Positions 6,905 through 33,427 of a stretch of DNA of 43,860 nucleotides are shown here, piece by piece. The stretch covers positions 1 through 43,860 of the IMG/VR virus record IMGVR_UViG_3300032278_004258. One strand, written 5' to 3'. Position 1 is the first letter of the stretch; each line of letters starts with the position of its first letter. Made by a program: the position numbers and the translations under genes. A model generated the notes under the pieces. It saw only the letters and a program-made list of their open reading frames with translations. It was not told where the DNA came from and ran no database searches. The stretch comes from a virus.

Positions 6905-8800
6905 ATGCGTAGTCTGTTTGACAATCCGGAGATCATCGTTCCCAGTGGCGATTTCGTTTCGCGGTTCACGCCTCGGCCGTATCAACAGCTGGCTCAGCAG
7001 AACTTCTTCCGGGAGGTCGACGGCGGGGCTGACGGGGCGCTCGTCCGACTCTGCACCGGAGGCGGGAAGACGTTCATCGGTTCCTGGATTGGAGCCGACT
7101 GGGTCAGTCGGTCGGACGATCACTATGTGATGGTAGTCGCTCACGAGCGGCAGCTCGTGCACCAGTTTGCCGAGGAGATTCGCGAGCTGCTCGGCGTCGA
7201 AGTTGGCATCGAGATGTCGGATGATGGACGGGTGCGATTCGAGTCCGGACTGGCTCCACGATTCATCGTCGCCAGTCGGGCCACCTTGCAGGAAGACGGA
7301 GGGACATCCCGCCTGTACAAGTTCGACTGGCGGAAGCACTGGCTGCTGATCTGTGATGAGTGTCACCGCTGGACCTACTCCATGAAGTCCTGCCGGCACA
7401 TCATCGACTGGTTCGAGCAGAATCCGGAATCGCGTCGCCTCGGGCTGACCGCCACGCCGGAACGTGGCGACGGAGTCACCTTTGAGCGGCTGTTTCCTTC
7501 CGTGGCACTCGATTATCGCATGTACGACCTCGACGGCGGGCCGAGTGCGGTCAATGACGGCTGGGCTGTGCCGTACGACCAGAGATTTGTCGAAGTGGCT
7601 GGTGTCGACTTCGCCAATCTCCGCGAGGTGGCCGGGGACTTCAAAGACGACGAGCTCGACGCGCTCCTGAGTCAAAAGGAACAGCTCGACTCGCTGATTC
7701 AGCCGACGCTCGACCTCGTCGAGGATCGCCGCACGATCATCTTCAATCCCGGTGTCGGCATGGCTCAGGCTGTAGCGGCTGCCATCAACGCCGAGCGCGA
7801 ATATCGCCTGGAGAACGGACTGCCATGCGAGTTTGGCGAAGCGAAGGCTCTTGACGGCTCGGCCGATGAAGTGCTGAGGAACAGTGTCTTCGAGGAGCAC
7901 AAGAGCGGGAAGATTCAGTTTCTCTCAGTCTGCGGTCTCTGCCGGGAAGGCTACAACGATCCGGGAATTCGGGCCGTGGCGATCTTTCGCCCGACGAAGT
8001 CGCGGCCGCTTGCGGAACAAATGAAGGGCCGCGGTTGCCGTCCGCTTAAGGGAATCCTGGAGGGCCTCGAAACCGCCGAGGAACGGAAGGCGGCCATCGC
8101 CGCCAGTGAGAAGCCGACCTGCATGATCATCGACCTTGTCGGGATCAGTGGCCTGGCTGATGTCGCCAGTACGGCCCATTTGCTGGCAGTCGGCAAGCCG
8201 GACTCCGTTGTCGAGCGAGCGAACGAAAACGCCCGCAAGAAAGACGGACCGGTCGATATGGCTGAAGAGCTCCGAAATGCCGAGGAGGAACTGGAGCAGG
8301 AGCGGATTGAACAGGAACAGCTCACGCTCAAGCTGAAAGCGGAGGCTGAGGCGGAAGCCGCTCGCGAGGCGGCTCGACTGGCTGAGGAGGCCCGCAAAGC
8401 CGAAGCCGAGAAGATGGCCCGGGTGCGTTCGAAGGTCCACTACAGCGAGCGAAAAGTCGAACACGGAGGCGTGGCGATCGGCGGCGGATCGAGCAGTGTC
8501 GAGCCGGGAATTATGCCATTCGGTCGGTTCGCTGGCCAGAAGCTGGCGGAACTGCCGGAGTGGTACCTGCAGTGGGGAGCCCGTGAAGTCAAACAGGCGA
8601 GCGTTCGGAAGCAGATGGAGCGGGAACTGAATCGGCGTTACGGACGTGACACGGTCGCCACGCCTTCCAGTTCTTCGCCCGCGACAGACAAGCAGATCGC
8701 TGTTTTGAAACGATTTGGATTCACCGCAGACGGGCTGACCTACGGCGAGGCCGGCCGCATCATTACGGAAAAAGTCAACTCCAAACTCACCACCGCCTAG
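6905..8800 (+). CDS. SF2 DEAD/DEAH-type helicase with DUF3820-like C-terminus
   Basis: This 631-residue protein has a Q-motif-like opening ([11 protein letters not shown]), Walker A TGGGKT (51-56), Walker B DECH (151-154), motif [13 protein letters not shown] and a motif VI-like [10 protein letters not shown]. It is therefore an ATP-dependent DNA/RNA translocase of the RecQ/UvsW/type I-III HsdR-like group. Residues about 455-515 are a Glu/Ala-rich coiled coil. Residues about 535-580 ([19 protein letters not shown]) look like the small DUF3820 domain seen in phage nucleases and helicases. A final segment [12 protein letters not shown] resembles a UBA-like tail. It lies between ParB and SSB, in the replication/recombination block. 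Confidence 0.88.
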
Positions 8801-9891: not shown

Positions 9892-11301
9892 GTGGCGACG
9901 AGCTATCAATCCTTTCTCTCCACAAAGCATATTCGGCATCAGGCCACGGGATTTGACCTCGTGTCGGAATTGCCGGCGAAGATGTGGGACTGGCAGTGTC
10001 GGGTCGCTGAGTGGTGTTGCCGCAAGGGCCGGGCGGCGATCTTTGCCGACTGCGGTCTGGGCAAGACGATCATGCAGTTGGCCTGGTGCGACCAGGTGCG
10101 ACAGTTGACTCGGAAGCCGGTGCTGCTGCTGACGCCGATTGCGGTGGGACCGCAGACGGTTCGCGAGGCGGAGACGTTCGGCGTTTCTGGTGTTCAGCTG
10201 GCGAAAGACGACAGCAATGTGACCAGGCCGGGCATCTACGTGACCAACTATCATCGCCTTGCCAAGTTCGACCTGAGTCGCTTTGCCGGCGTCTGCCTCG
10301 ACGAATCATCCATCCTAAAATCGTTCACGGGGGCGACCAAGCGCCAGCTTTGTGAGGGCTTTGCCGACACGCCCTACAAGCTGGCCTGCACGGCGACTGC
10401 GGCGCCCAACGATCACATGGAGCTCGGCAATCACTCGGAGTTTCTCGGAGTGATGCCGTCCAATGAGATGCTGAGCCGTTGGTTCATCAACGACACCATG
10501 AAGGCCGGTGGCTATCGTCTGCGAGGTCACGCTCGCGACGACTTCTGGCGCTGGGTTTCCAGCTGGGCGGTGTGCATTTCCCTGCCTTCGGACGTGGGTG
10601 GCTCGGATGGCGGTTACCGGCTGCCGGAACTTGTTCTCCATAAACACATCATCGAGGACGACACCGTTCCTCCCGGGCATCTGTTCAAGCCGGCCCAGGC
10701 AACCGTCTCGGCGACGAACGTGCACGAGATCAAACGTCAGGGCCTGGCCGCGAAAGCGAATCTCGTGGCTGAGATTGTGAATCCGTCCACGGAGGCCTGG
10801 TCCATCTGGTGCGACACCGATTACGAGGCGGATGCGTTACGGAGGACTGTTGAAAACTGTGTTGAAGTTCGAGGCTCAACTCGGGAGGACTTGAAGGTCG
10901 ACTTCTTTGAAGGGTTCACTTCGGGTCGGCACTCCCGGCTGATCACCAAACCGGAGATTGGCGGCTTCGGCATGAACTGGCAGCACTGCCGAAACACCTG
11001 CTACTTCGCCGGCTTCTCGTTTGAAAAGTGGTACCAGGCGATCCGTCGCCACTATCGCTTCGGACAGACGCAAGACGTGAACGTGCACCTGATTGCGACT
11101 GATGCGGAGGTGCCTGTTATTGAAACACTCGAACGCAAGAGTCGCGATCACCTCGCCATGCAGCGGGCGATGAGCGAAGCGATGCGAGAGGGGCTGCAGG
11201 AAGAGATCTTTGGCAAAGAACTGAAACCCTATCGACCAGTAATGGCAGCGACGCTGCCTGCCTGGTTGACACGAAAGGAGCCTCGCAGTGTTGCAATGTG
11301 A
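9892..11301 (+). CDS. SNF2-like DNA translocase
   Basis: This 469-residue protein carries SF2/SNF2 motifs: Walker A DCGLGKT, motif Ia LLLTPIAVGPQ, motif II LDESS (a DExx variant), motif III CTATAAPND and motif VI RHYRFGQT. The spacing and the lack of extra domains match the compact phage SNF2 helicases found next to DNA methyltransferases. Start GTG 9892 follows CAGGAG. It overlaps the methyltransferase gene by 14 nt, indicating translational coupling and probably a shared job in DNA modification, remodelling or replication fork handling. Confidence 0.85.
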   Translation: MATSYQSFLSTKHIRHQATGFDLVSELPAKMWDWQCRVAEWCCRKGRAAIFADCGLGKTIMQLAWCDQVRQLTRKPVLLLTPIAVGPQTVREAETFGVSGVQLAKDDSNVTRPGIYVTNYHRLAKFDLSRFAGVCLDESSILKSFTGATKRQLCEGFADTPYKLACTATAAPNDHMELGNHSEFLGVMPSNEMLSRWFINDTMKAGGYRLRGHARDDFWRWVSSWAVCISLPSDVGGSDGGYRLPELVLHKHIIEDDTVPPGHLFKPAQATVSATNVHEIKRQGLAAKANLVAEIVNPSTEAWSIWCDTDYEADALRRTVENCVEVRGSTREDLKVDFFEGFTSGRHSRLITKPEIGGFGMNWQHCRNTCYFAGFSFEKWYQAIRRHYRFGQTQDVNVHLIATDAEVPVIETLERKSRDHLAMQRAMSEAMREGLQEEIFGKELKPYRPVMAATLPAWLTRKEPRSVAM

Positions 11302-24459: not shown

Positions 24460-24777
24460 ATGCCAAGAAAGCCGAAGTATCGACGTTCTGCTGCCACTCG
24501 GGTTCGAGCAAAGAGGCTTACTGATGAGGTGTACCATGTGAGGAATTGCCTTCGCGGCCGCCGCTGGAGAAAGACGAGAGAGCGGAAGCTGAGACAGCAC
24601 CCGCTCTGTGAAATCTGTCTGGAGTCGGGTGTTATGACGGCAGCCACGGAAGTGGACCACAAAGTCCCCTCCCGTGGCGATCCGGAGCTACACTGGGACT
24701 GGAACAACCTGCAGTCGACGTGCGCTCCCTGCCACACCGCCAAAACCCGGAAAGAGAATCGTGAAAACAAAGGCTGA
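24460..24777 (+). CDS. HNH endonuclease of the packaging module
   Basis: This 105-residue basic protein contains HPLCEICLESG, TEVDHKVP, then WNNLQSTCAPCHTAKTRKE, the CxxC...DH...NL-x-x-x-C-x-x-C-H order of HNH proteins located beside terminases. In HK97-type phages such proteins are needed with the terminase for specific cos cleavage (established for that group). TerS starts inside its 3' end. Confidence 0.88.
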   Translation: MPRKPKYRRSAATRVRAKRLTDEVYHVRNCLRGRRWRKTRERKLRQHPLCEICLESGVMTAATEVDHKVPSRGDPELHWDWNNLQSTCAPCHTAKTRKENRENKG

Positions 24778-25231
24778 TCTCGAACGCGACGGGCAGTACC
24801 GTCCGGACCGTCATCGCGACCGTCCGGACGAGGATCTTGCTATTGTCGTCACGGGGGAACCGGAACTGCTCGCAGGCAGTTGCGATAACCTCGCCAAGGT
24901 CGCCTTCAACGCCCTTGTGGAGTCACTGCCGCCTGGGGCTGTCGGGGCCGCCGATTCAATGGGGCTCACGGTCTTGGCGACGACGTGGTCTCGCTGGCTA
25001 CTCCTTTCGAGTCGACTCGACGAGTTGTCTCTCGTGCCGGAGTCGGACGATTACAACCGAGTCTTCCGGCAGGTCCTCGACTGCGAAAAGCAGATCCGCC
25101 AGTTTTCGGGCGAGTTTGGCCTGACCCCGAAGAGTCGAACGCAGATCAAACTGCAAATGATCCAGGCCAGCGAGAAGAAGTCGGCAACAGAGGAGATTGA
25201 CGAACTTCGCGATGAACTCGATCAAGACTAA
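24761..25231 (+). CDS. terS: Terminase small subunit (P27-type)
   Basis: This 156-residue protein begins at GTG 24761 within the HNH tail (overlap 17 nt). The C-terminal block EKQIRQFSGEFGLTPKSRTQ is the P27 small-terminase signature (GLTPxSR). It recognises phage DNA and brings TerL to it. The frame is open to 24674 but that part duplicates HNH sequence in another frame. It overlaps terL by 20 nt. Confidence 0.9.
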   Translation: MKTKADLERDGQYRPDRHRDRPDEDLAIVVTGEPELLAGSCDNLAKVAFNALVESLPPGAVGAADSMGLTVLATTWSRWLLLSSRLDELSLVPESDDYNRVFRQVLDCEKQIRQFSGEFGLTPKSRTQIKLQMIQASEKKSATEEIDELRDELDQD

Positions 25232-27023
25232 GTATCACGGCACGCTAAAGCTCAAGAACCAGGCGTTCCGGGACTACCTGTCGCAGGTCGAGCGATATAT
25301 GGAGGACGTGCTTGAAGGCCGCGTCTCGGTCTGTCGCTATGAGCGGCTCGCCGTGCAGCGGCATGTCAACGATCTGCAGCGAACTGACGATCGCTACTAC
25401 TTCAGTGCGAACATCGCCGCCTATCACGTCCACCTGTTCCCTGCCCTGCTCACTCACCAGACAGGCGGATTCAAGAACAAACCGTTCTATCTGTGCGGGT
25501 TCCAGGCGTTCATCGTCTGGGTTCTCTTCGGGTGGCGTCGCTCGGACAGTAAAATGCGACGATTCAAGGAAGCGTACCTTGAGTTCGCTCGAAAGAACGG
25601 CAAGACCGCTTTCGCAGCCGGCGTCGCAGAAGGACTGACGGGCTGGGACTTCCCTCACGAGGCCCGAGCTGAATCTTATTTCGCCGCCACCAAAGAAGCC
25701 CAGGCTAAGCTGTGCTGGGATGAGTGCTGGCGATTCATCCGCTACAACAAAGAAGTCCGCGACGACTTCAAGATATTGACGGCGTCGCATACGATTCGCC
25801 ACAAGCCGACCGATGCCATTCTCCGCTACGAGGGGTGTGACGGCACCACGCTCGACGGCCTGAATCCGAGCCTCGCCGTCTTCGACGAGCTGCACGAGTG
25901 GAAGGCAATGCATCGCACGCTGATGGAGAAACTGCAGACCGGCTCCGGGATGCGGCAGCAGCCGCTCTTCATCTACATTACCACCGCTGGCCATGAAGAC
26001 TCCGAAGTCTGGCTTGAGGAGAGATCCCACTCAACCAGCATCCTCGACGGCACGAAGTCTGACGATCAGCGATTCGCTATGATCTGCGCGATCGATCCAG
26101 AGGACGATCCGTTCCTGGAACGGCAGGAGCCGGAGCCCTCGCTGAAGGAGTACGAGGAGTTCCTGCAGTCGCCGAAATTCTATGACATGTGCCGGAAAGC
26201 GAATCCGACACTTGGCGAAGTCTGCCGCCTCGATTCTATCCAGGATCAGTGTAGGAAGGCATTCGGCCGCAAAGAAAAACGTCGGGAAGTGCTGCGGTAT
26301 CAGTTCAACCGCATGGTCTCGCCGACAGATCACTACATCGCTCCCGAAGACTGGAAGTCCGGCGACCTGCTCGTCGAAGTCGAAGAGGGCGACTGGGGCT
26401 GCGGCGGGGTGGACCTTGCCCGCAGCGACGACTTCGCAGCGGCAAGTTTCGTGTTTCCGCTGGAGATCGAAGAGGACAAGCTCGAGTTTCACATCATCTC
26501 GCGATCATGGACATGCCGCGAAACCTCAGTGGACCTGACGCAGGAGCCATTCCTGACCGCGATTCGAGAAGGGAATCTTGTTGTCTGCGAGGGAGATCAG
26601 ATTGATTACTCACTCATTCGCGACTTTGTTGTCGAAATGTGTAGTAAACACGACATCTGCTCTGTGGCCTACGACCCTGCGTTTGCGAGGGAAACAGCCC
26701 AGATCCTCCAGGACGAGCATCAAATCAATGTCTTCTACTTCGGTCAGTCTCCGAAGCATTACAACGAGCCGATGCGGAACTTCAGGCGGGACGTCAAGCT
26801 CGGCAAGATCGTTCATGGCGGGGAACCGCTCCTCGCCTGGCAGGCGAACAATCTGATCATGCGAATCAACGCAATGGATCAGTGGATGCCGGACAAGCGA
26901 ATCTCTCGCGGGAAGATTGACGCGATGGTCGCCACGCTCATGGCCTACTCTGAGTGCAAGTACAACGAGAAGGCTCGTCCAAGCTTCTTCCGGGGAAACT
27001 TTAGCATCAAGCTGGGTGGCTGA
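25212..27023 (+). CDS. terL: Terminase large subunit
   Basis: This 603-residue protein has an ATPase domain with Walker A-like ARKNGKT (about 124-130), Walker B LAVFDELHEW and a coupling segment (FIYITTAGHE). The RNase H-like nuclease domain shows GVDLARSDDFAA, SVAYDPAFARE and a late Asp in KIDAMVATLMAY. It translocates DNA into the prohead and cuts concatemers. ATG 25212 is preferred over TTG 25197. It belongs to the Terminase_1/HK97 group by sequence order. Confidence 0.95.
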   Translation: MNSIKTKYHGTLKLKNQAFRDYLSQVERYMEDVLEGRVSVCRYERLAVQRHVNDLQRTDDRYYFSANIAAYHVHLFPALLTHQTGGFKNKPFYLCGFQAFIVWVLFGWRRSDSKMRRFKEAYLEFARKNGKTAFAAGVAEGLTGWDFPHEARAESYFAATKEAQAKLCWDECWRFIRYNKEVRDDFKILTASHTIRHKPTDAILRYEGCDGTTLDGLNPSLAVFDELHEWKAMHRTLMEKLQTGSGMRQQPLFIYITTAGHEDSEVWLEERSHSTSILDGTKSDDQRFAMICAIDPEDDPFLERQEPEPSLKEYEEFLQSPKFYDMCRKANPTLGEVCRLDSIQDQCRKAFGRKEKRREVLRYQFNRMVSPTDHYIAPEDWKSGDLLVEVEEGDWGCGGVDLARSDDFAAASFVFPLEIEEDKLEFHIISRSWTCRETSVDLTQEPFLTAIREGNLVVCEGDQIDYSLIRDFVVEMCSKHDICSVAYDPAFARETAQILQDEHQINVFYFGQSPKHYNEPMRNFRRDVKLGKIVHGGEPLLAWQANNLIMRINAMDQWMPDKRISRGKIDAMVATLMAYSECKYNEKARPSFFRGNFSIKLGG

Positions 27024-27025
27024 CC

Positions 27026-28660
27026 TTGATCACAAAACTCGCCTCACGGAATCCTGCTCTCGACCACTTCGCCAGCGAATGCCGCCGCGAGCCCCTTGGA
27101 CATCCCAGCAATCTGAATGCCTCCGACTTCTTCATGTACTCGCCCACTGCGGCGAATGTGGAAGTGACTGAGGCCGTTGCCCTCAACTATTCCGCAACCT
27201 GGGCGGCGACGTCCTTGCTGTGTTCACTTTCCGGCATCCTTCGACTGTCTGTCTGGGCGCCGCAAAAAAAGAGCCGCACGCTCAAGCCTTCTCAGGAGCA
27301 CGACGTCAGCCAGCTGCTTCGCCGGCCGAATAACGCGATGACGCCCTATGACGTGAAGGCTCTCATGACGCGGGGGCAGGTCAACGCCGGCAATGGATAT
27401 GCCGAGATCGTTCGGGATGGCCGCGACAATCCAGTCAGCATCCTGCCGATCCGTCCGCACCGGGTGACTCCGCGCATTCTTCGAGAGCCACTCAATGGCT
27501 TCGACAAGGGCGACCTCGTCTACGAGGTATCATTTGACGAGGATGATCGATCGCTGTATCGCAAGTCGGCCGAAGACTCGAGTTCCGTCATGCTCCACTC
27601 GCGTGACGTGCTCGACTTCCGCTCCAAGCTGACGCACGAAGGAATTACAGGGCTTGGCGTCATCAGCTACGCTCGCGAGTCCATCGGCCTCGGTATTCAG
27701 GCGGAACGGTTTGGGGCCAAGTACTACGGCCGCGAGGGAATGCCGAAGATTATCATCAATGTCCTGAGCCGGATGAATGAAGCCGCTCAGCGAGACTTCC
27801 GGAAGCAGTGGAAGGATATCTACGGGCAGAACAGCAACCCGGAAGACATCGCGATCCTGCCGGATGGCGAGGCCAAGATTCACGTCCTCGATTTGAATCC
27901 GAATGATGCTGATCTGCTCAATACGCGAAAGTTTACCGTGGAGGAGATCGCCCGCTGGTATGGTGTCCCGCCGTACCTCCTGCAGCTGATGATCAACTCT
28001 GGTAGTGTCAGCCTGGAGCAGCTCGGCGTCGAGTTCGTCAATTACTCTCTCATGCCCTGGCTCTGCCGGCAGGAGGAGGAACTGGAAGCCAAGCTGCTGT
28101 CGCCGGAAGAGCAGCGAGAGGGGTTCCGGATTCGATATGACGTCGACAATCTCCAAAAGGGCGACCTGGCCAGCCGTGTCTCTGCGTACTCGAAGATGAT
28201 GCAGTACGGCTTCACGCTGAACGAGGTCCTCGAGAAGGAGGGGCTCCCTCCAATCGGCCCGGAAGGCGATGTGCGGTTCTTTCCGTCAAACATGACGACG
28301 CTCGACTCCGTCATCAAGGGGACAAACCTGAAGGCGATGCAGCGGACCGGTCAAAATACAGATGGCCGGAACACGGACCGCAAAGACTCCGATGACCCGG
28401 ACCCGCAGAACGTCGCCCAGGATGCCGAGTCGAAAACGGCTCAAGCCTGGATGGAGCGGATTCAGCAGCGATTCAATTACAAGGCGGCTCAGGCTGTCGA
28501 GAAGATGCGGAATCGCCGGGAGTCCTTCGCATCTGTTCGCGAGTTCTACGCCAAGCACACATTGCAGCACCAGGAAGAGGTCAGCCATATTCCTGACTGC
28601 GATGTAGTGATTGATTATTCGGCCGTACTGGCTGATCTGGAGAAAGAGTGGCCACGATGA
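27026..28660 (+). CDS. Portal protein (HK97 family)
   Basis: This 544-residue protein has the phage-portal core: VALNYSATWAATSLLCSLSG, GNGYAEIVRDG, LGVISYARESIGLGIQAERF, and the conserved FTVEEIARWYGVPPYLLQLM with LEQLGVEFVNYSLMPWL. It forms the dodecameric channel at one capsid vertex. The C-terminal 100 residues are charged and helical. Start TTG 27026 is 2 nt after the terL stop; a later start cannot be excluded. The protease start overlaps its stop. Confidence 0.95.
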   Translation: MITKLASRNPALDHFASECRREPLGHPSNLNASDFFMYSPTAANVEVTEAVALNYSATWAATSLLCSLSGILRLSVWAPQKKSRTLKPSQEHDVSQLLRRPNNAMTPYDVKALMTRGQVNAGNGYAEIVRDGRDNPVSILPIRPHRVTPRILREPLNGFDKGDLVYEVSFDEDDRSLYRKSAEDSSSVMLHSRDVLDFRSKLTHEGITGLGVISYARESIGLGIQAERFGAKYYGREGMPKIIINVLSRMNEAAQRDFRKQWKDIYGQNSNPEDIAILPDGEAKIHVLDLNPNDADLLNTRKFTVEEIARWYGVPPYLLQLMINSGSVSLEQLGVEFVNYSLMPWLCRQEEELEAKLLSPEEQREGFRIRYDVDNLQKGDLASRVSAYSKMMQYGFTLNEVLEKEGLPPIGPEGDVRFFPSNMTTLDSVIKGTNLKAMQRTGQNTDGRNTDRKDSDDPDPQNVAQDAESKTAQAWMERIQQRFNYKAAQAVEKMRNRRESFASVREFYAKHTLQHQEEVSHIPDCDVVIDYSAVLADLEKEWPR

Positions 28661-29577
28661 AGTTCGAATTGAATGATCTGATCGCCCCGCTAGGAACGGT
28701 TGCAGCCCGTGCCGACGACGATATCTGGATGGCCTACTTCGCTGCCGGCAAGCTGCAGGCCAGAACGAGGTGGCATGTCTCAGTTCGAGGCGAAGTGGCT
28801 GTTGTCCCGCTTCAGGGTGCGATAATCCGCGGCATGGGGCACTATGGAACGGACCCTGACGATTTCCGGAGAGCCGTCAACGCCTCGGCAGCGAATCCTA
28901 AGATTAAGCAGATCCTCCTGTATGTCGACAGTCCCGGAGGTGCCCTTCCCGGCGTTGAACTGGCGGCCCAGGCAGTCTATGCGGCTCGGCAGGTAAAGCC
29001 GGTCGTTGCCATTACCAGCGACTATAATTGCTCCGCCGCTCTGTGGATCTCGTCGCAGGCCAGCAGAGTCTATTCGACTCGCGACGGCTGGACAGGTTCG
29101 CACGGTGTCTTTCGCCAACACGTCAGTTTCGCCAAGGCGGCCGAACAGGCGGGAGTCGAATGCACGTTCATTCATGCCGGAAAGTTCAAGGTCGAGGGCA
29201 ATCTCTGGCAACCGCTCTCTGAGGAAGCGAAGTCGCACTGGCAGCAGTGTGTCAACGACACGTTCGCCGAGTTCACGGCCGCACTTGCCCGGGGCCGCGA
29301 GAAATCAACGGAGCACATCATGCAGCACTTCGGCCAGGGCCGTTCATTGACGGCTCAGCAGGCGTTGAGTGCAGGGATGATCGACGAGATTGTCGAGTCC
29401 GATCAGGTTCTGGCAAAGATGCATGGCTCATCGGGCCTTGTCGCCGTCAATGAACAGCTGACTCGCGACCTGCTCTGCGAAATTTCCGGCGACTCGCCTC
29501 AACAAAGTTCGACTTCGAGTCGACAGATTTACTATCAGAAGAAACTGAAAGTCCGCGAGCGGGAGATTGCCTCCTGA
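28657..29577 (+). CDS. Head maturation protease, S49 (SppA-like)
   Basis: This 306-residue protein matches S49 phage proteases: AVVPLQGAIIRG, ILLYVDSPGGALPGVELAAQ, the nucleophile region YNCSAALWISSQA, and GKFKVEGNLWQPL with the general-base Lys. A serine/lysine dyad should process scaffold and capsid precursors. ATG 28657 overlaps the portal stop (ATGA); GTG 28648 is 3 codons upstream. The tail after residue 270 is disordered and may hold scaffold function. Confidence 0.92.
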   Translation: MKFELNDLIAPLGTVAARADDDIWMAYFAAGKLQARTRWHVSVRGEVAVVPLQGAIIRGMGHYGTDPDDFRRAVNASAANPKIKQILLYVDSPGGALPGVELAAQAVYAARQVKPVVAITSDYNCSAALWISSQASRVYSTRDGWTGSHGVFRQHVSFAKAAEQAGVECTFIHAGKFKVEGNLWQPLSEEAKSHWQQCVNDTFAEFTAALARGREKSTEHIMQHFGQGRSLTAQQALSAGMIDEIVESDQVLAKMHGSSGLVAVNEQLTRDLLCEISGDSPQQSSTSSRQIYYQKKLKVREREIAS

Positions 29578-29658
29578 CCGACTTTCCCAGCCGTTGCTGG
29601 TCGCTTTAATTATCCGGGCCGTTGCCCTTCGCTCCTACCAGAAGGAAGTGGCAACACT

Positions 29659-30966
29659 ATGCCCAAGCTGCACGAACTCAAAGCTGAACGCGCTCAGCTC
29701 TTCGAACGCCAGAAGGAGATCCTGAAGGCCAGCGAAGAGACTGGCTTCACTACTGAAGACGAAGCCAAGTTCGACGAGATCGACGCCGACATCGAGAAGC
29801 TCGGCGATCAGATCGAACGCATCGAAAAGATGAGCTCTCGCGTTGCGGAACGCGGCAAGGTGCTGGCGGGAGCCAACTCTCGCACGCAGGATTTCTATGT
29901 CGATCACAGCGACCTCGCCGACGAGGCCGAGGAAGAGGCGAACGATCTGTTTGCCAAGGTCGACATGTTTAGCCGCAGCTCCGAGCTGGAACGCATCTCC
30001 GTTAGTCCGGCCAACAAGGCGATGCGAGCCGCATTCGACAAGTGGATGAGCACCGGGTCCATGGCGGCCATGCAGCACACTCGCCAGGGCGAGGGTGGCT
30101 ATCTGGTGATGCCCGAACAGTATGTCGCTCGGCTGATTCAGAACGTGGACGACATGGTCCAGATTCGCAAGCTGGCTACCATCATTCCGCTCACGTCCGC
30201 GGCGTCGATCGGCGTCCCCACGCGGGAAACCGACCTGAACGACGCGGACTGGACCTCGGAGATTGAAGAGGTCCAGGAGGACGAAGGGCTGACCTTCGGC
30301 AAGCGGAAGATGCAGCCGCGCCCGCTCTCCAAGCTGGTCAAGATCAGCCGCGACCTGATGAAGATCGCCGCCCTCAATCCGGAGGCCTTGCTGCGTCAGC
30401 GACTGTCGCACAAGTTCGGAGTCACCGAAGAAAAGGGCTTCATGATCGGCTCTGGCAACGAGCAGCCTCTCGGTCTGTTCACGGCCAGCGACGACGGAAT
30501 TCCGACGTCGCGCGATGTCGCGACGGAGAACGGAGCCACGGCTCTCACTCCGGAAGGCCTGATCAATGCCAAATACTTCCTCAAGCCGCAGTACATGATG
30601 TCGAAGTCTCTCCGGTGGATCTTTCACCGGGATGCGATCCGCAATCTCCGCAAGTTGCGGTACGGCGAAAACGACGAGCATTTTGTCTGGAAGCCGGGCC
30701 TGAAAGACGAGCCCGACACCATTCTGGAAGTGCCGTACATCATGAGCGAGTACTGCCCGAACACGTTCACGGCCAATCAGTATGTCGGGATTCTCGGCGA
30801 CTTCAGTTACTACTGGATCGTCGAGGTCATGAAGCTCGAAGTGCAGCGGCTGAACGAACTGTTCGCCAAAACCAACCAGGTCGGCTTCATCGGTCGGGCC
30901 TGGCTCGACGGAGCCCCGACGTTGGCCGAAGCCTTCGTGCGGGTCCAGCTTGGCTCCGGTGGCTGA
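29659..30966 (+). CDS. Major capsid protein (HK97 fold)
   Basis: This 435-residue protein has an N-terminal helical delta/scaffold domain (about 1-100, KLHELKAERAQLFERQKEIL) followed by a capsid domain: GGYLVMPEQYVARLIQN, LATIIPLTSAASIGVPTRE, GSGNEQPLGLFTASDDGIPT and AWLDGAPTLAEAFVRVQL. The length and order match HK97-type coat proteins, with the protease encoded upstream. An 81-bp gap with CCAGC-CGTT-GCTGG precedes it, and AAGGAAG serves as ribosome site. Confidence 0.95.
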   Translation: MPKLHELKAERAQLFERQKEILKASEETGFTTEDEAKFDEIDADIEKLGDQIERIEKMSSRVAERGKVLAGANSRTQDFYVDHSDLADEAEEEANDLFAKVDMFSRSSELERISVSPANKAMRAAFDKWMSTGSMAAMQHTRQGEGGYLVMPEQYVARLIQNVDDMVQIRKLATIIPLTSAASIGVPTRETDLNDADWTSEIEEVQEDEGLTFGKRKMQPRPLSKLVKISRDLMKIAALNPEALLRQRLSHKFGVTEEKGFMIGSGNEQPLGLFTASDDGIPTSRDVATENGATALTPEGLINAKYFLKPQYMMSKSLRWIFHRDAIRNLRKLRYGENDEHFVWKPGLKDEPDTILEVPYIMSEYCPNTFTANQYVGILGDFSYYWIVEVMKLEVQRLNELFAKTNQVGFIGRAWLDGAPTLAEAFVRVQLGSGG

Positions 30967-31050
30967 TTCCTTGTTGTGAACCATCCGGGGAGTTCGCTCA
31001 CCGGTCTCTTTGATGTCCTGATTATTCGGTTCAGTGAAGGAACCTCAGCA

Positions 31051-31506
31051 ATGATGAAACGCGATGGAGCTTCGAACATGCAGCCTGTCGTTTCCTGTGT
31101 CGGGAACGCGATCGGCACGTCCGGAGCGGGAGTTGAAGTAACGGGCTTGCCGGTTAGCACGGCGGGCTTCGGAGAAGTGACTTGCGTCTTGGCGACGGCA
31201 GTACTCGGCGATGCCGATGTCGTGATTACGCCAGTGATCGAAGAATCAGACACGCTCGTCGACGCTGACTTCTCTGCGGTCTCGGATGACGATCTCGTCG
31301 GACTCGAAGGCTCGCTCAATTTCGCCGATGACCTGTCGACTCGCAAGATCGGCTACGTCGGCAAGAAGAAGTACATCCGCATCAATTGCACGCCAACCGG
31401 GACGGCGGATGCAAACCCGACCACGTTCATGGGGCTGGTGATTCTCGGCTCGCCGCGACTCGCTCCGGTGGCCCAGGAACACGCCAACACCCTGACTGCC
31501 TCCTGA
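31051..31506 (+). CDS. Post-capsid conserved phage protein (possible decoration)
   Basis: This 151-residue protein lies directly downstream of the capsid gene. It contains FGEVTCVLATAVLGDADVVI and TRKIGYVGKKKYIRINCTP, a block I recall in many siphophage proteins encoded after the capsid, of the small beta-rich type. ATG 31051 has AAGGAACC upstream; the frame is open to 30976 but without a good site. Decoration or head completion is plausible; not proven. Confidence 0.6.
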   Translation: MMKRDGASNMQPVVSCVGNAIGTSGAGVEVTGLPVSTAGFGEVTCVLATAVLGDADVVITPVIEESDTLVDADFSAVSDDDLVGLEGSLNFADDLSTRKIGYVGKKKYIRINCTPTGTADANPTTFMGLVILGSPRLAPVAQEHANTLTAS

Positions 31507-31533
31507 TACGCAACCCGTGATGTGAGGTGGATG

Positions 31534-31569
31534 GACCCCCAGCGGCAATCGAGGCGGCCGCTGGGGGTC
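31534..31569. terminator. 13-bp perfect hairpin downstream of the capsid operon
   Basis: GACCCCCAGCGGC pairs with GCCGCTGGGGGTC around AATCGAGGCG. There is no T-run after it (ATTGCC). It may attenuate transcription between the abundant capsid genes and the connector genes. Confidence 0.55.
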
Positions 31570-31592
31570 ATTGCCTGAAGGATGAAAGCTCT

Positions 31593-31973
31593 ATGAAGGT
31601 TCGTTTGCTCAAACAGTCCGTTTGTCAGCTGGGAGTCTTCCCGGTCAGCAGCACTCCCGACATCCCTGAAGAGCTGGCCAGCCAGTGGATTCGCGATGGC
31701 GTCGCCGAGGCGGTCAGTCCCGGCCGATCGTCGATCGAGGCAAATGGGCCCGCCCCGAAACCCGGCCAGCCGACGACGGAAGGACCGGTCACGGAACCGG
31801 AAGAAGAACACGCCCAGGCAGCTGAAGGACCCGCTCTGAAACCCGGCCAGCCGACGACGGAAGGACCGGTCACGGAACCGGAAGAAGAACACGCCCAGGC
31901 AGCTGAAGAACCCGCTCTGAAACCCGGCCAGCCGACGACGGAAGAAAAGAGGCCGCGTCGCCGCAAGGCCTGA
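31593..31973 (+). CDS. Short head-module protein with 27-residue tandem repeat
   Basis: This 126-residue protein has an N-terminal third (MKVRLLKQSVCQLGVFPVSS, DIPEELASQWIRDGVAEAV) that resembles the small proteins following phage capsid genes. After residue 50 it is disordered and repetitive: two full copies and one partial copy of KPGQPTTEGPVTEPEEEHAQ plus seven residues, then basic KRPRRRKA. The DNA repeat unit is 81 bp. Confidence 0.65.
   Translation: MKVRLLKQSVCQLGVFPVSSTPDIPEELASQWIRDGVAEAVSPGRSSIEANGPAPKPGQPTTEGPVTEPEEEHAQAAEGPALKPGQPTTEGPVTEPEEEHAQAAEEPALKPGQPTTEEKRPRRRKA
31757..31945 (+). repeat. 81-bp tandem repeat, 2.3 copies
   Basis: Units start at 31757, 31838 and 31919 (GAAACCCGGCCAGCCGACGA each time). 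The first two units differ only near position 71 (GGACCC versus GAACCC), so the duplication is very recent. Unit length is a multiple of three, keeping the frame. Confidence 0.95.
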
Positions 31974-32024
31974 CAGCTTTCGCCGACTTGCTTCAATTTC
32001 CTCCAGATACAACTTAGGGGCAAT

Positions 32025-32387
32025 ATGCACACGCAAATCAACTCCCACAAAACTCCGGGGCTTAATAGCGAACTGGACATCGCGGTTCTCGATGGACCAG
32101 GACAGGGAGGTGCCTGTCATGAGTACCACATCATCAATTGCGAGCAAGGCGTCCACGCGGTTATCCGGTTCCAGAATGGGCCAATCGAAGAGAACGGCAT
32201 CAACGGAATCACCAATGAGTCACTCCTGGCCGTCGTAGAGCATCGACTGCAGGGTTTTCAGTCTGGTCAGTTCGCCTGCCGTGAAAACGCCGTCGCTCTT
32301 ACGAAGCTGCAGGAGGCCATGATGTGGCTCCAGAAGCGAACTCGCGATCGCCTCGCCCGTGGCGTGGAAGGCTCAAGCCAGCAATAG
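32025..32387 (+). CDS. Tad1/Acb2-like signal-sequestering protein (candidate anti-defence)
   Basis: This 120-residue protein contains RFQNGPIEENGINGITNE, LLAVVEHRLQGFQSGQFACR, then ENAVALTKLQEAMMWLQKRT and a terminal RGVEG. This matches my memory of the hairpin-domain family shared by the anti-Thoeris protein Tad1 and the anti-CBASS protein Acb2. Those proteins form oligomers that bind and sequester gcADPR or cyclic oligonucleotides. The length fits Tad1 (about 120). It stands between the capsid and connector genes behind ATG 32025. Assignment is by recalled motif, not by search. Confidence 0.65.
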   Translation: MHTQINSHKTPGLNSELDIAVLDGPGQGGACHEYHIINCEQGVHAVIRFQNGPIEENGINGITNESLLAVVEHRLQGFQSGQFACRENAVALTKLQEAMMWLQKRTRDRLARGVEGSSQQ

Positions 32388-32432: not shown

Positions 32433-33086
32433 ATGCCCGTTAAGCAGGTTAACAGCCAGAACTACTGGGGAAACACCCAGGCTCACGTGACGACGAGCTA
32501 TCGTCTGACCGGCGATCCTGTGGAGTTCCTCGTCGTTTCGCTGTCGGAAGTGAAGGCCAACCTGCGAATCACGTGGGAGGATGAAGACGCCCTCCTGCAG
32601 TCGTACATCGCAATCGCCGAATCGATTGTGCAGGAAGACTTGCCGGAAGTTGTGTTTCGCGAGGTCGCGATGGAGCTGACGCTGGACGAGTTTCCCAGCG
32701 AGATTCAGATTGCCCGCCTGCCGGTGCAGTCGATCGAGTCCGTCACGTACTTCGACTTGGACAACGCAGAGCAGACGCTGACGGCCGACGAAGATTTCCA
32801 CGCCGATCTCAACTCATTCCCGGCCCGACTCTGGTCCACGGCCGATCTCAATCGCGGCGTTCGTTTCTGGCCCGACGTGAAGCAGAGGCCCGGAGCAGTC
32901 GCAGTGGCCTTCACGGCGGGCTACGCCTCCGCGTCCGATGTTCCGCTCTGCTATAAGCAGCTCCTGCATCTCTGGGTGGGGCATCTCTACAAGAACCGCA
33001 CGCCAGTTGAGCAGGGCCGGCCGTCCGCGGTCCCCTACACCCTGGAATATCTGACGCAGATGCTGAGAAAGCGGAGGCTCGGATGA
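32433..33086 (+). CDS. Head-tail connector (gp6/phiE125 gp8-like)
   Basis: This 217-residue protein has VVSLSEVKANLRITWEDEDA, LLQSYIAIAESIVQEDL, the phiE125 gp8-type alpha-helical opening, and a tail FTAGYASASDVPLCYKQLLH with WVGHLYKNRTP. It is an adaptor between portal and tail. It lies in the conserved order connector, closure, gp10, completion. The next gene overlaps by 4 nt. Confidence 0.85.
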   Translation: MPVKQVNSQNYWGNTQAHVTTSYRLTGDPVEFLVVSLSEVKANLRITWEDEDALLQSYIAIAESIVQEDLPEVVFREVAMELTLDEFPSEIQIARLPVQSIESVTYFDLDNAEQTLTADEDFHADLNSFPARLWSTADLNRGVRFWPDVKQRPGAVAVAFTAGYASASDVPLCYKQLLHLWVGHLYKNRTPVEQGRPSAVPYTLEYLTQMLRKRRLG

Positions 33087-33427
33087 ATCCAGGAAAATAC
33101 CAGGATCTGATCATCGTCCAGACGGCCGGAACGGAGATCGGCGACAGCTACGAACAGACGCCCATTTACACCGACGGTCCGCAGTTTTGGGCTGAAGTCA
33201 AATTGCTCGGCGGATTTGAGATCGCCGAGAACATGATCATGCGGGGGCAAAATCAGTATCGCGTCCGCTGCGAATGGAATCCGATCGCCGCGGGACTGAA
33301 GACTGATCAGCGGCTCAAGCTGGCCCATCGTGACAACGCCATCCTGAACATCACCTCAATGCCGGAAGACATCGACGGCAACCGCGGCCGGATCGAGTTC
33401 GTCGCCGAAAGGCTCGAACATGATTAA
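33083..33427 (+). CDS. Head closure protein (SPP1 gp16-like)
   Basis: This 114-residue beta-rich protein opens with MNPGKYQDLIIVQT and has FWAEVKLLGGFEIAENMIM, YRVRCEWNPIAAGLKTDQRL and GRIEFVAERLEHD. This is the typical pattern of head-tail joining proteins that close the portal. ATG 33083 overlaps the connector stop, and its end overlaps the next gene by 8 nt. Confidence 0.8.
   Translation: MNPGKYQDLIIVQTAGTEIGDSYEQTPIYTDGPQFWAEVKLLGGFEIAENMIMRGQNQYRVRCEWNPIAAGLKTDQRLKLAHRDNAILNITSMPEDIDGNRGRIEFVAERLEHD

Follow-up and report, generated by a model that had tools for sequence, protein, structure and literature searches.

The stretch of viral DNA analysed here, 43,860 nucleotides long and called the window below, carries within its head gene cluster a gene whose product is very probably a Tad1-family sponge, one that would hold host nucleotide signals and be co-expressed with the late head genes. 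On the sequence evidence presented below, the protein is a clear Tad1 homologue encoded by a real gene, an ordinary member, in a new phage, of a family that is already known. The tad1-like open reading frame lies on the + strand at the exact coordinates given in an earlier note on this DNA, runs from an ATG start to a TAG stop (120 amino acids), and is preceded by the SD-like TTAGGGGC. From stop to stop the frame spans just 137 codons, so the start cannot be moved far upstream, where at most ∼17 residues could be added. The peptides quoted in the earlier note are all found in the protein: RFQNGPIEENGINGITNE at residues 48–65, ALTKLQEAMMWLQKRTRDR at residues 91–109, and then RGVEG at residues 112–116. 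The gene and two of its segments are as follows.

32025–32387, + strand: tad1-like gene, 120 amino acids (P0001), with a predicted N-terminal beta-sheet and then a C-terminal helical hairpin
32166–32219, + strand: RFQNGPIEENGINGITNE, residues 48–65, covering the final part of the last strand plus the conserved loop preceding helix 1
32280–32360, + strand: helix 2 of the hairpin, residues 86–112, with the motifs RENA, MMWLQKR, and RDR; a helix in the predicted model

A chance open reading frame is ruled out by the Tad1 matches in the PDB, the relatives in IMG/VR, and the invariant alignment columns described below. A reverse-strand open reading frame (31353–32156, 267 amino acids) that overlaps the start of tad1 was also rejected, as all homology belongs to the + strand protein.

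The earlier note had placed the protein in the Acb2/Tad1 hairpin family, an assignment that is borne out by Pfam, PHROG, and PDB sequence matches, by the predicted fold, and by conserved residues, and that can be stated more precisely as Tad1. In the HMM check proposed with that assignment, the protein scored 27.9 bits against Pfam PF24729 (Acb2_Tad1_hairpin), narrowly above the gathering cut-off of 27, over residues 83–102, and this was the only Pfam family matched. A match to phrog_2428 (2.6e-36) covered residues 27–119. When the single protein was used to search PDB sequences, it matched 8kbb (CmTad1) at 3.9e-24, 7uav, 8kbg, and 8kbh at ∼5e-19, and phiKZ gp184 (8y6v chain I) at 7e-12; with a profile built from 26 relatives, Tad1 chains matched at 1.6e-29. 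Among the phage records searched, the Tad1 of Bacillus phage SBSphiJ7, which was identified experimentally (PMC12043709), is 49.5% identical to the window protein across 95 amino acids. In IMG/VR, 30 relatives were found with the single protein as query and 405 with the profile, at up to ∼70% identity. PADLOC gave no match for the protein, and NCBIfam gave only one unrelated sub-threshold match.

In the alignment of 26 family members, 18 columns are invariant, among them F49, G52, N60, G61, and E65 in the segment of residues 48–65 and E87, L92, W101, L102, R105, T106, R109, and R112 in helix 2. Residues F82, N92, and R109 of cbTad1, which we take to be gcADPR-pocket residues, align with F78, N88, and R105 of the window protein, and these are conserved in at least 90% of the 26 relatives. 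Another cbTad1 residue, R57, presumably also in the pocket, aligns with I54; CmTad1 (8kbb) likewise reads GPIK at the matching position, and solved complexes of CmTad1 with cyclic trinucleotides are among the Foldseek matches. The window protein differs from cbTad1 in having I54 in the R57 loop, and from the solved Tad1 proteins in a shorter stretch in the region of strands 3–4.

An AlphaFold run on a single chain, with 26 sequences as input, gave a model with a mean pLDDT of 85 and a pTM of 0.49, in which strands are predicted at residues 3–5, 17–21, 33–38, and 43–48 and helices at residues 64–77 and 86–112. Tad1 has been described as four strands and two helices, and Acb2 as a protein of ∼94 amino acids that lacks a sheet and has two long helices plus a short one (PMC12043709). 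The modelled protomer has the Tad1-type order and not that of Acb2, and an Acb2 identity is ruled out by this architecture, 120 amino acids with four strands ahead of the hairpin. Each of the 20 significant Foldseek matches (E < 0.001; best 5.3e-9) was a Tad1, and they include complexes with gcADPR, cA3, and cAAG. VIA-align also ranked Tad1 first (Z 6.8–7.8 over 103–114 residues, rmsd 4–5 Å), with unrelated helical hairpins next at Z ∼6. The single-chain model deviates from Tad1 by an rmsd of 4–6 Å, so that its orientation of sheet and hairpin (pTM 0.49) does not reproduce that of Tad1, a mismatch that may reflect the absent partner chain. The predicted fold would be weak evidence on its own; it agrees with the evidence from sequence. 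From these results, we consider the homology, the Tad1-type fold of the modelled protomer, and the conservation of the family motifs to be established.

Among the closest known systems, cbTad1 (7UAV, 7UAW, 8SMD, 8KBE, 8KBF), which is identical to the window protein at 44 of 97 aligned residues, and CmTad1 (8KBB–8KBD) have four strands and a hairpin as in the window model and were the top Foldseek matches. The Tad1 of SBSphiJ7 belongs to the same hairpin family, but its neighbours are annotated as hypothetical proteins, and the homologue in P59, a phage related to SBSphiJ7, has genes for DNA polymerase I and a recombinase as neighbours, whereas the window gene lies in a head module. The Tad1 domain of phiKZ gp184 resembles the window protein; gp184 is 230 amino acids long, has a long N-terminal extension, and is injected from the virion, whereas the window protein is a bare domain. 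The gp184 of 8y6v is taken to be the phiKZ protein on the basis of its name, its length, and reports on phiKZ gp184/orf184; no paper on PDB entry 8y6v was found in the literature searched. Acb2 of the PaMx33 type has the Acb2/Tad1 Pfam hairpin and would share general signal sequestration with the window protein, but it is all-helical and ∼94 amino acids long, whereas the window protein carries the N-terminal sheet of Tad1.

The location of tad1 inside the head gene cluster, as claimed in the earlier note, was confirmed: the genes for TerS, TerL, portal, S49 protease, and capsid lie upstream, and those for the adaptor, head closure protein, and tail terminator lie downstream. The genes of this HK97-type head module, tad1 included, are all on the + strand, and its other members are as follows.

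24674–25231, + strand: terminase small subunit (PF05119, phrog_83)
25197–27023, + strand: terminase large subunit (PF20441, PF03354, phrog_9)
27026–28660, + strand: portal protein (PF04860, phrog_12)
28648–29577, + strand: S49-type head maturation protease (PF01343, phrog_53)
29659–30966, + strand: major capsid protein, HK97 type (PF05065, phrog_10)
30976–31506, + strand: probable capsid cement protein (phrog_5707; 34% identical over 109 amino acids to the protein annotated as cementing in Streptomyces phage Chymera)
31527–31973, + strand: Pro/Glu-rich protein, adjoining tad1 upstream (no family match; in the place of Chymera gp8)
32433–33086, + strand: gp6-like head-tail adaptor, adjoining tad1 downstream (PF05135, phrog_442)
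33083–33427, + strand: head closure protein (PF05521, phrog_25)

Beyond the head closure gene lie those for the tail terminator and then a tail assembly chaperone. The Pro/Glu-rich protein contains an internal repeat, with about three copies of PALKPGQPTTEGPVTEPEEEHAQAAE-like units.

The order of these genes in Chymera (TerS, TerL, portal, protease, capsid, cement, small protein, connector) is the same as in the window, without Tad1. In a Planctomyces MAG (L032), TerL, portal, and capsid are followed by a 136-amino acid protein and, ∼100 bp further, by the connector, and a Tad1 match is absent from that genome; in a planctomycete-phylum genome (L118), capsid and connector are present without Tad1 between them. 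Because these collinear modules have no Tad1 there, tad1 looks like an accessory gene that was inserted into a working head module, a reading drawn from distant modules (capsid 23–44% identical) rather than from a clean empty-site comparison. A scan of viral contigs with the capsid protein found no close relatives of the head module.

The planctomycete host named in the earlier note is not established, as relatives of the capsid and TerL point to mixed groups. Identity of the major capsid protein to its Chymera counterpart (44%) is about as high as to a homologue from a planctomycete-phylum genome (41%, with 51% in the best segment). Relatives of TerL turned up in two MAGs, one of Planctomyces (37%) and one gammaproteobacterial (31%). 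Tad1-like matches were present in 5 of 392 planctomycete-phylum genomes, the best of them 55–56% identical, and no tRNA was found in the window. In one planctomycete-phylum genome (L122, 1183–1815, + strand), Tad1-like sequence lies within a longer open reading frame (210 amino acids) that has a possible N-terminal extension as in phiKZ gp184. Elsewhere in the window, at 6905–8800 and 9892–11301, there are two different phage-type DNA helicase genes ∼1 kb apart (best matches phrog_16 and phrog_62).

In the proposed mechanism, the window protein would most likely assemble as the Tad1 hexamer of three interlocked dimers, with pockets that would bind and hold, and not cleave, nucleotide alarm signals produced by the host. 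The predicted ligand is glycocyclic ADP-ribose (gcADPR) from Thoeris TIR enzymes, and family precedent suggests cyclic di- and trinucleotides from CBASS as further ligands. Defence effectors would then stay untriggered, and the cell would survive long enough for phage release. The sponge would be made together with the late head proteins; this is expected because tad1 runs in their direction on the same strand, and neither a promoter nor a terminator can be recognised near it. Between 29500 and 33500, the scan found nothing promoter-like and, on the + strand, nothing resembling a terminator, the sigma-70 promoter search carrying little weight for this phage. Late expression, which the earlier note had also suggested, is a reasonable inference from position alone.

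A plausible benefit of this position is that the sponge would be made alongside the capsid, portal, and protease, proteins of the kinds that TIR and CBASS systems reportedly sense (the phage protein YonE, which appears below, we take to be a portal protein). In the Thoeris systems of Staphylococcus and Streptococcus, the major capsid protein is sensed and activates the enzymes (PMC12578639). The TIR protein SpbK acts through YonE (PMC12847820), and a study of a type I CBASS screen, cited by title in PMC11722364, names the prohead protease as a key determinant. A functional link between such triggers among head genes and co-expression of a sponge is possible. A broader proposal, in which the head operon retains the sponge because capsid, portal, and protease trigger Thoeris and CBASS and the antidote would then always accompany the trigger, as a general strategy of unrelated phages, seems to us unlikely.

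Discussions of Tad1 usually treat it as a free-standing counter-defence gene, and no published survey of Tad1 gene neighbourhoods was found within the literature searched. We examined the neighbourhoods of the 30 relatives from the protein query and the best 80 of the 405 from the profile, two partly overlapping sets, and classified the nearest neighbours of Tad1 with PHROGs, so that the counts of classified neighbours are minimum values. Tad1 has head genes next to it in at least 8 groups besides the window, of roughly 75–80 distinct loci, in the following arrangements.

L004: TerL, Tad1, portal
L012: portal-like gene, two small open reading frames, Tad1, scaffold-like gene, capsid
L023/L024: portal-type head-tail adaptor overlapping Tad1, then a scaffold-like gene
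L057 (and L055, with the same spacing): portal-type adaptor, 27 bp, Tad1
L054: TerL overlapping Tad1
L079/L081: Tad1, 32 bp, TerL, portal
L096: TerL, 58 bp, Tad1
L110/L103: weak TerL match, 16 bp, Tad1

Other Tad1 loci adjoin genes for DnaB helicase, DNA polymerase, a methyltransferase, an integrase, or PAPS reductase. The head-located copies form no clade in a tree that is poorly resolved and weakly supported. Pfam searches for TerL and portal on the contigs of the relatives were mostly empty. By a rough estimate, not a computed one, a randomly chosen gene in a phage of 50–70 genes would have one of the 4–5 core head genes as its neighbour in about one case in ten, and the adjacency of Tad1 to head genes is roughly at that random-placement level; the data therefore show Tad1 outside early regions and do not demonstrate a preference for head modules. 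Tad1 is not confined to early regions, and the location of tad1 in a head module is real, recurrent in the family, and not exceptional.

Two further observations come from these neighbourhoods. In L041 (4736–6061), a phage gene for PAPS reductase, an auxiliary metabolic gene, is preceded by Tad1 at a distance of ∼360 bp. The L002 record (G001) carries two Tad1 copies on the - strand, ∼1.6 kb apart (29584–29958 and 31558–31902), that are 70% and 62% identical to the window protein and perhaps differ in ligand preference.

These neighbourhoods bear most directly on the possibility that the protein is a sponge whose position has no functional meaning, with an accessory tad1 landing at any tolerated intergenic site, maybe under its own regulation. 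We regard this possibility as evenly balanced. The differing sites at which the other head-adjacent copies lie, the loci beside replication, methylation, or nucleotide-metabolism genes, the near-random share of head adjacency, and the absence of a clade of head-located copies are all consistent with it. However, that share comes from a rough estimate, the neighbours classified give a minimum count, and, as head operons are usually co-transcribed, some late expression would be hard to avoid.

A Tad1 that travels inside the virion and enters the cell along with the DNA, soaking up signal from the first minutes of infection as is reported for phiKZ gp184, is improbable here. Such delivery, which the earlier note raised as an alternative to late expression, is not new in principle: phiKZ gp184 is an inner-body interactor whose injection has been validated (PMC10449902), and it appears in a 2026 review as an injected Tad1 that counters both CBASS and Thoeris (PMC13282480). 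In gp184, the Tad1 domain occupies approximately residues 115–227 of 230, behind an N-terminal extension of ∼114 amino acids, whereas the window protein has no such extension and could gain at most the ∼17 residues noted above; its close relatives, at ∼120–180 amino acids, have no comparable conserved extension. The architecture of the window protein thus lends the idea no support, and although tad1 lies between capsid and neck genes, packaging does not follow from a position beside head genes. Tad1 homologues in Lactococcus phage 1706 (orf71, L034) and Bacillus phage P59 (gene 140, L037) are annotated as structural or putative structural proteins, but these labels are not traceable to data, and the source of the phage 1706 label was not found in the literature searched. 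If the labels come from virion proteomics, these proteins would be examples of a bare-domain, virion-associated Tad1.

It is very improbable that the Tad1 fold was kept while the protein was recruited as a structural or neck protein and lost its sponge role: tad1 lies directly upstream of the head-tail adaptor and distant homologues are annotated as structural, but its conservation follows that of the whole family, which is mostly not beside recognised head genes, and the collinear modules of Chymera and of planctomycete-phylum genomes are without the gene, so it is dispensable for such heads.

The reading that we prefer is that of a Tad1 sponge made with the late head proteins. With 405 relatives in environmental viruses found by one profile, the family is large. 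A head-operon sponge encoded beside proteins of the kinds to which TIR and CBASS systems reportedly respond points to a simple principle of timing.
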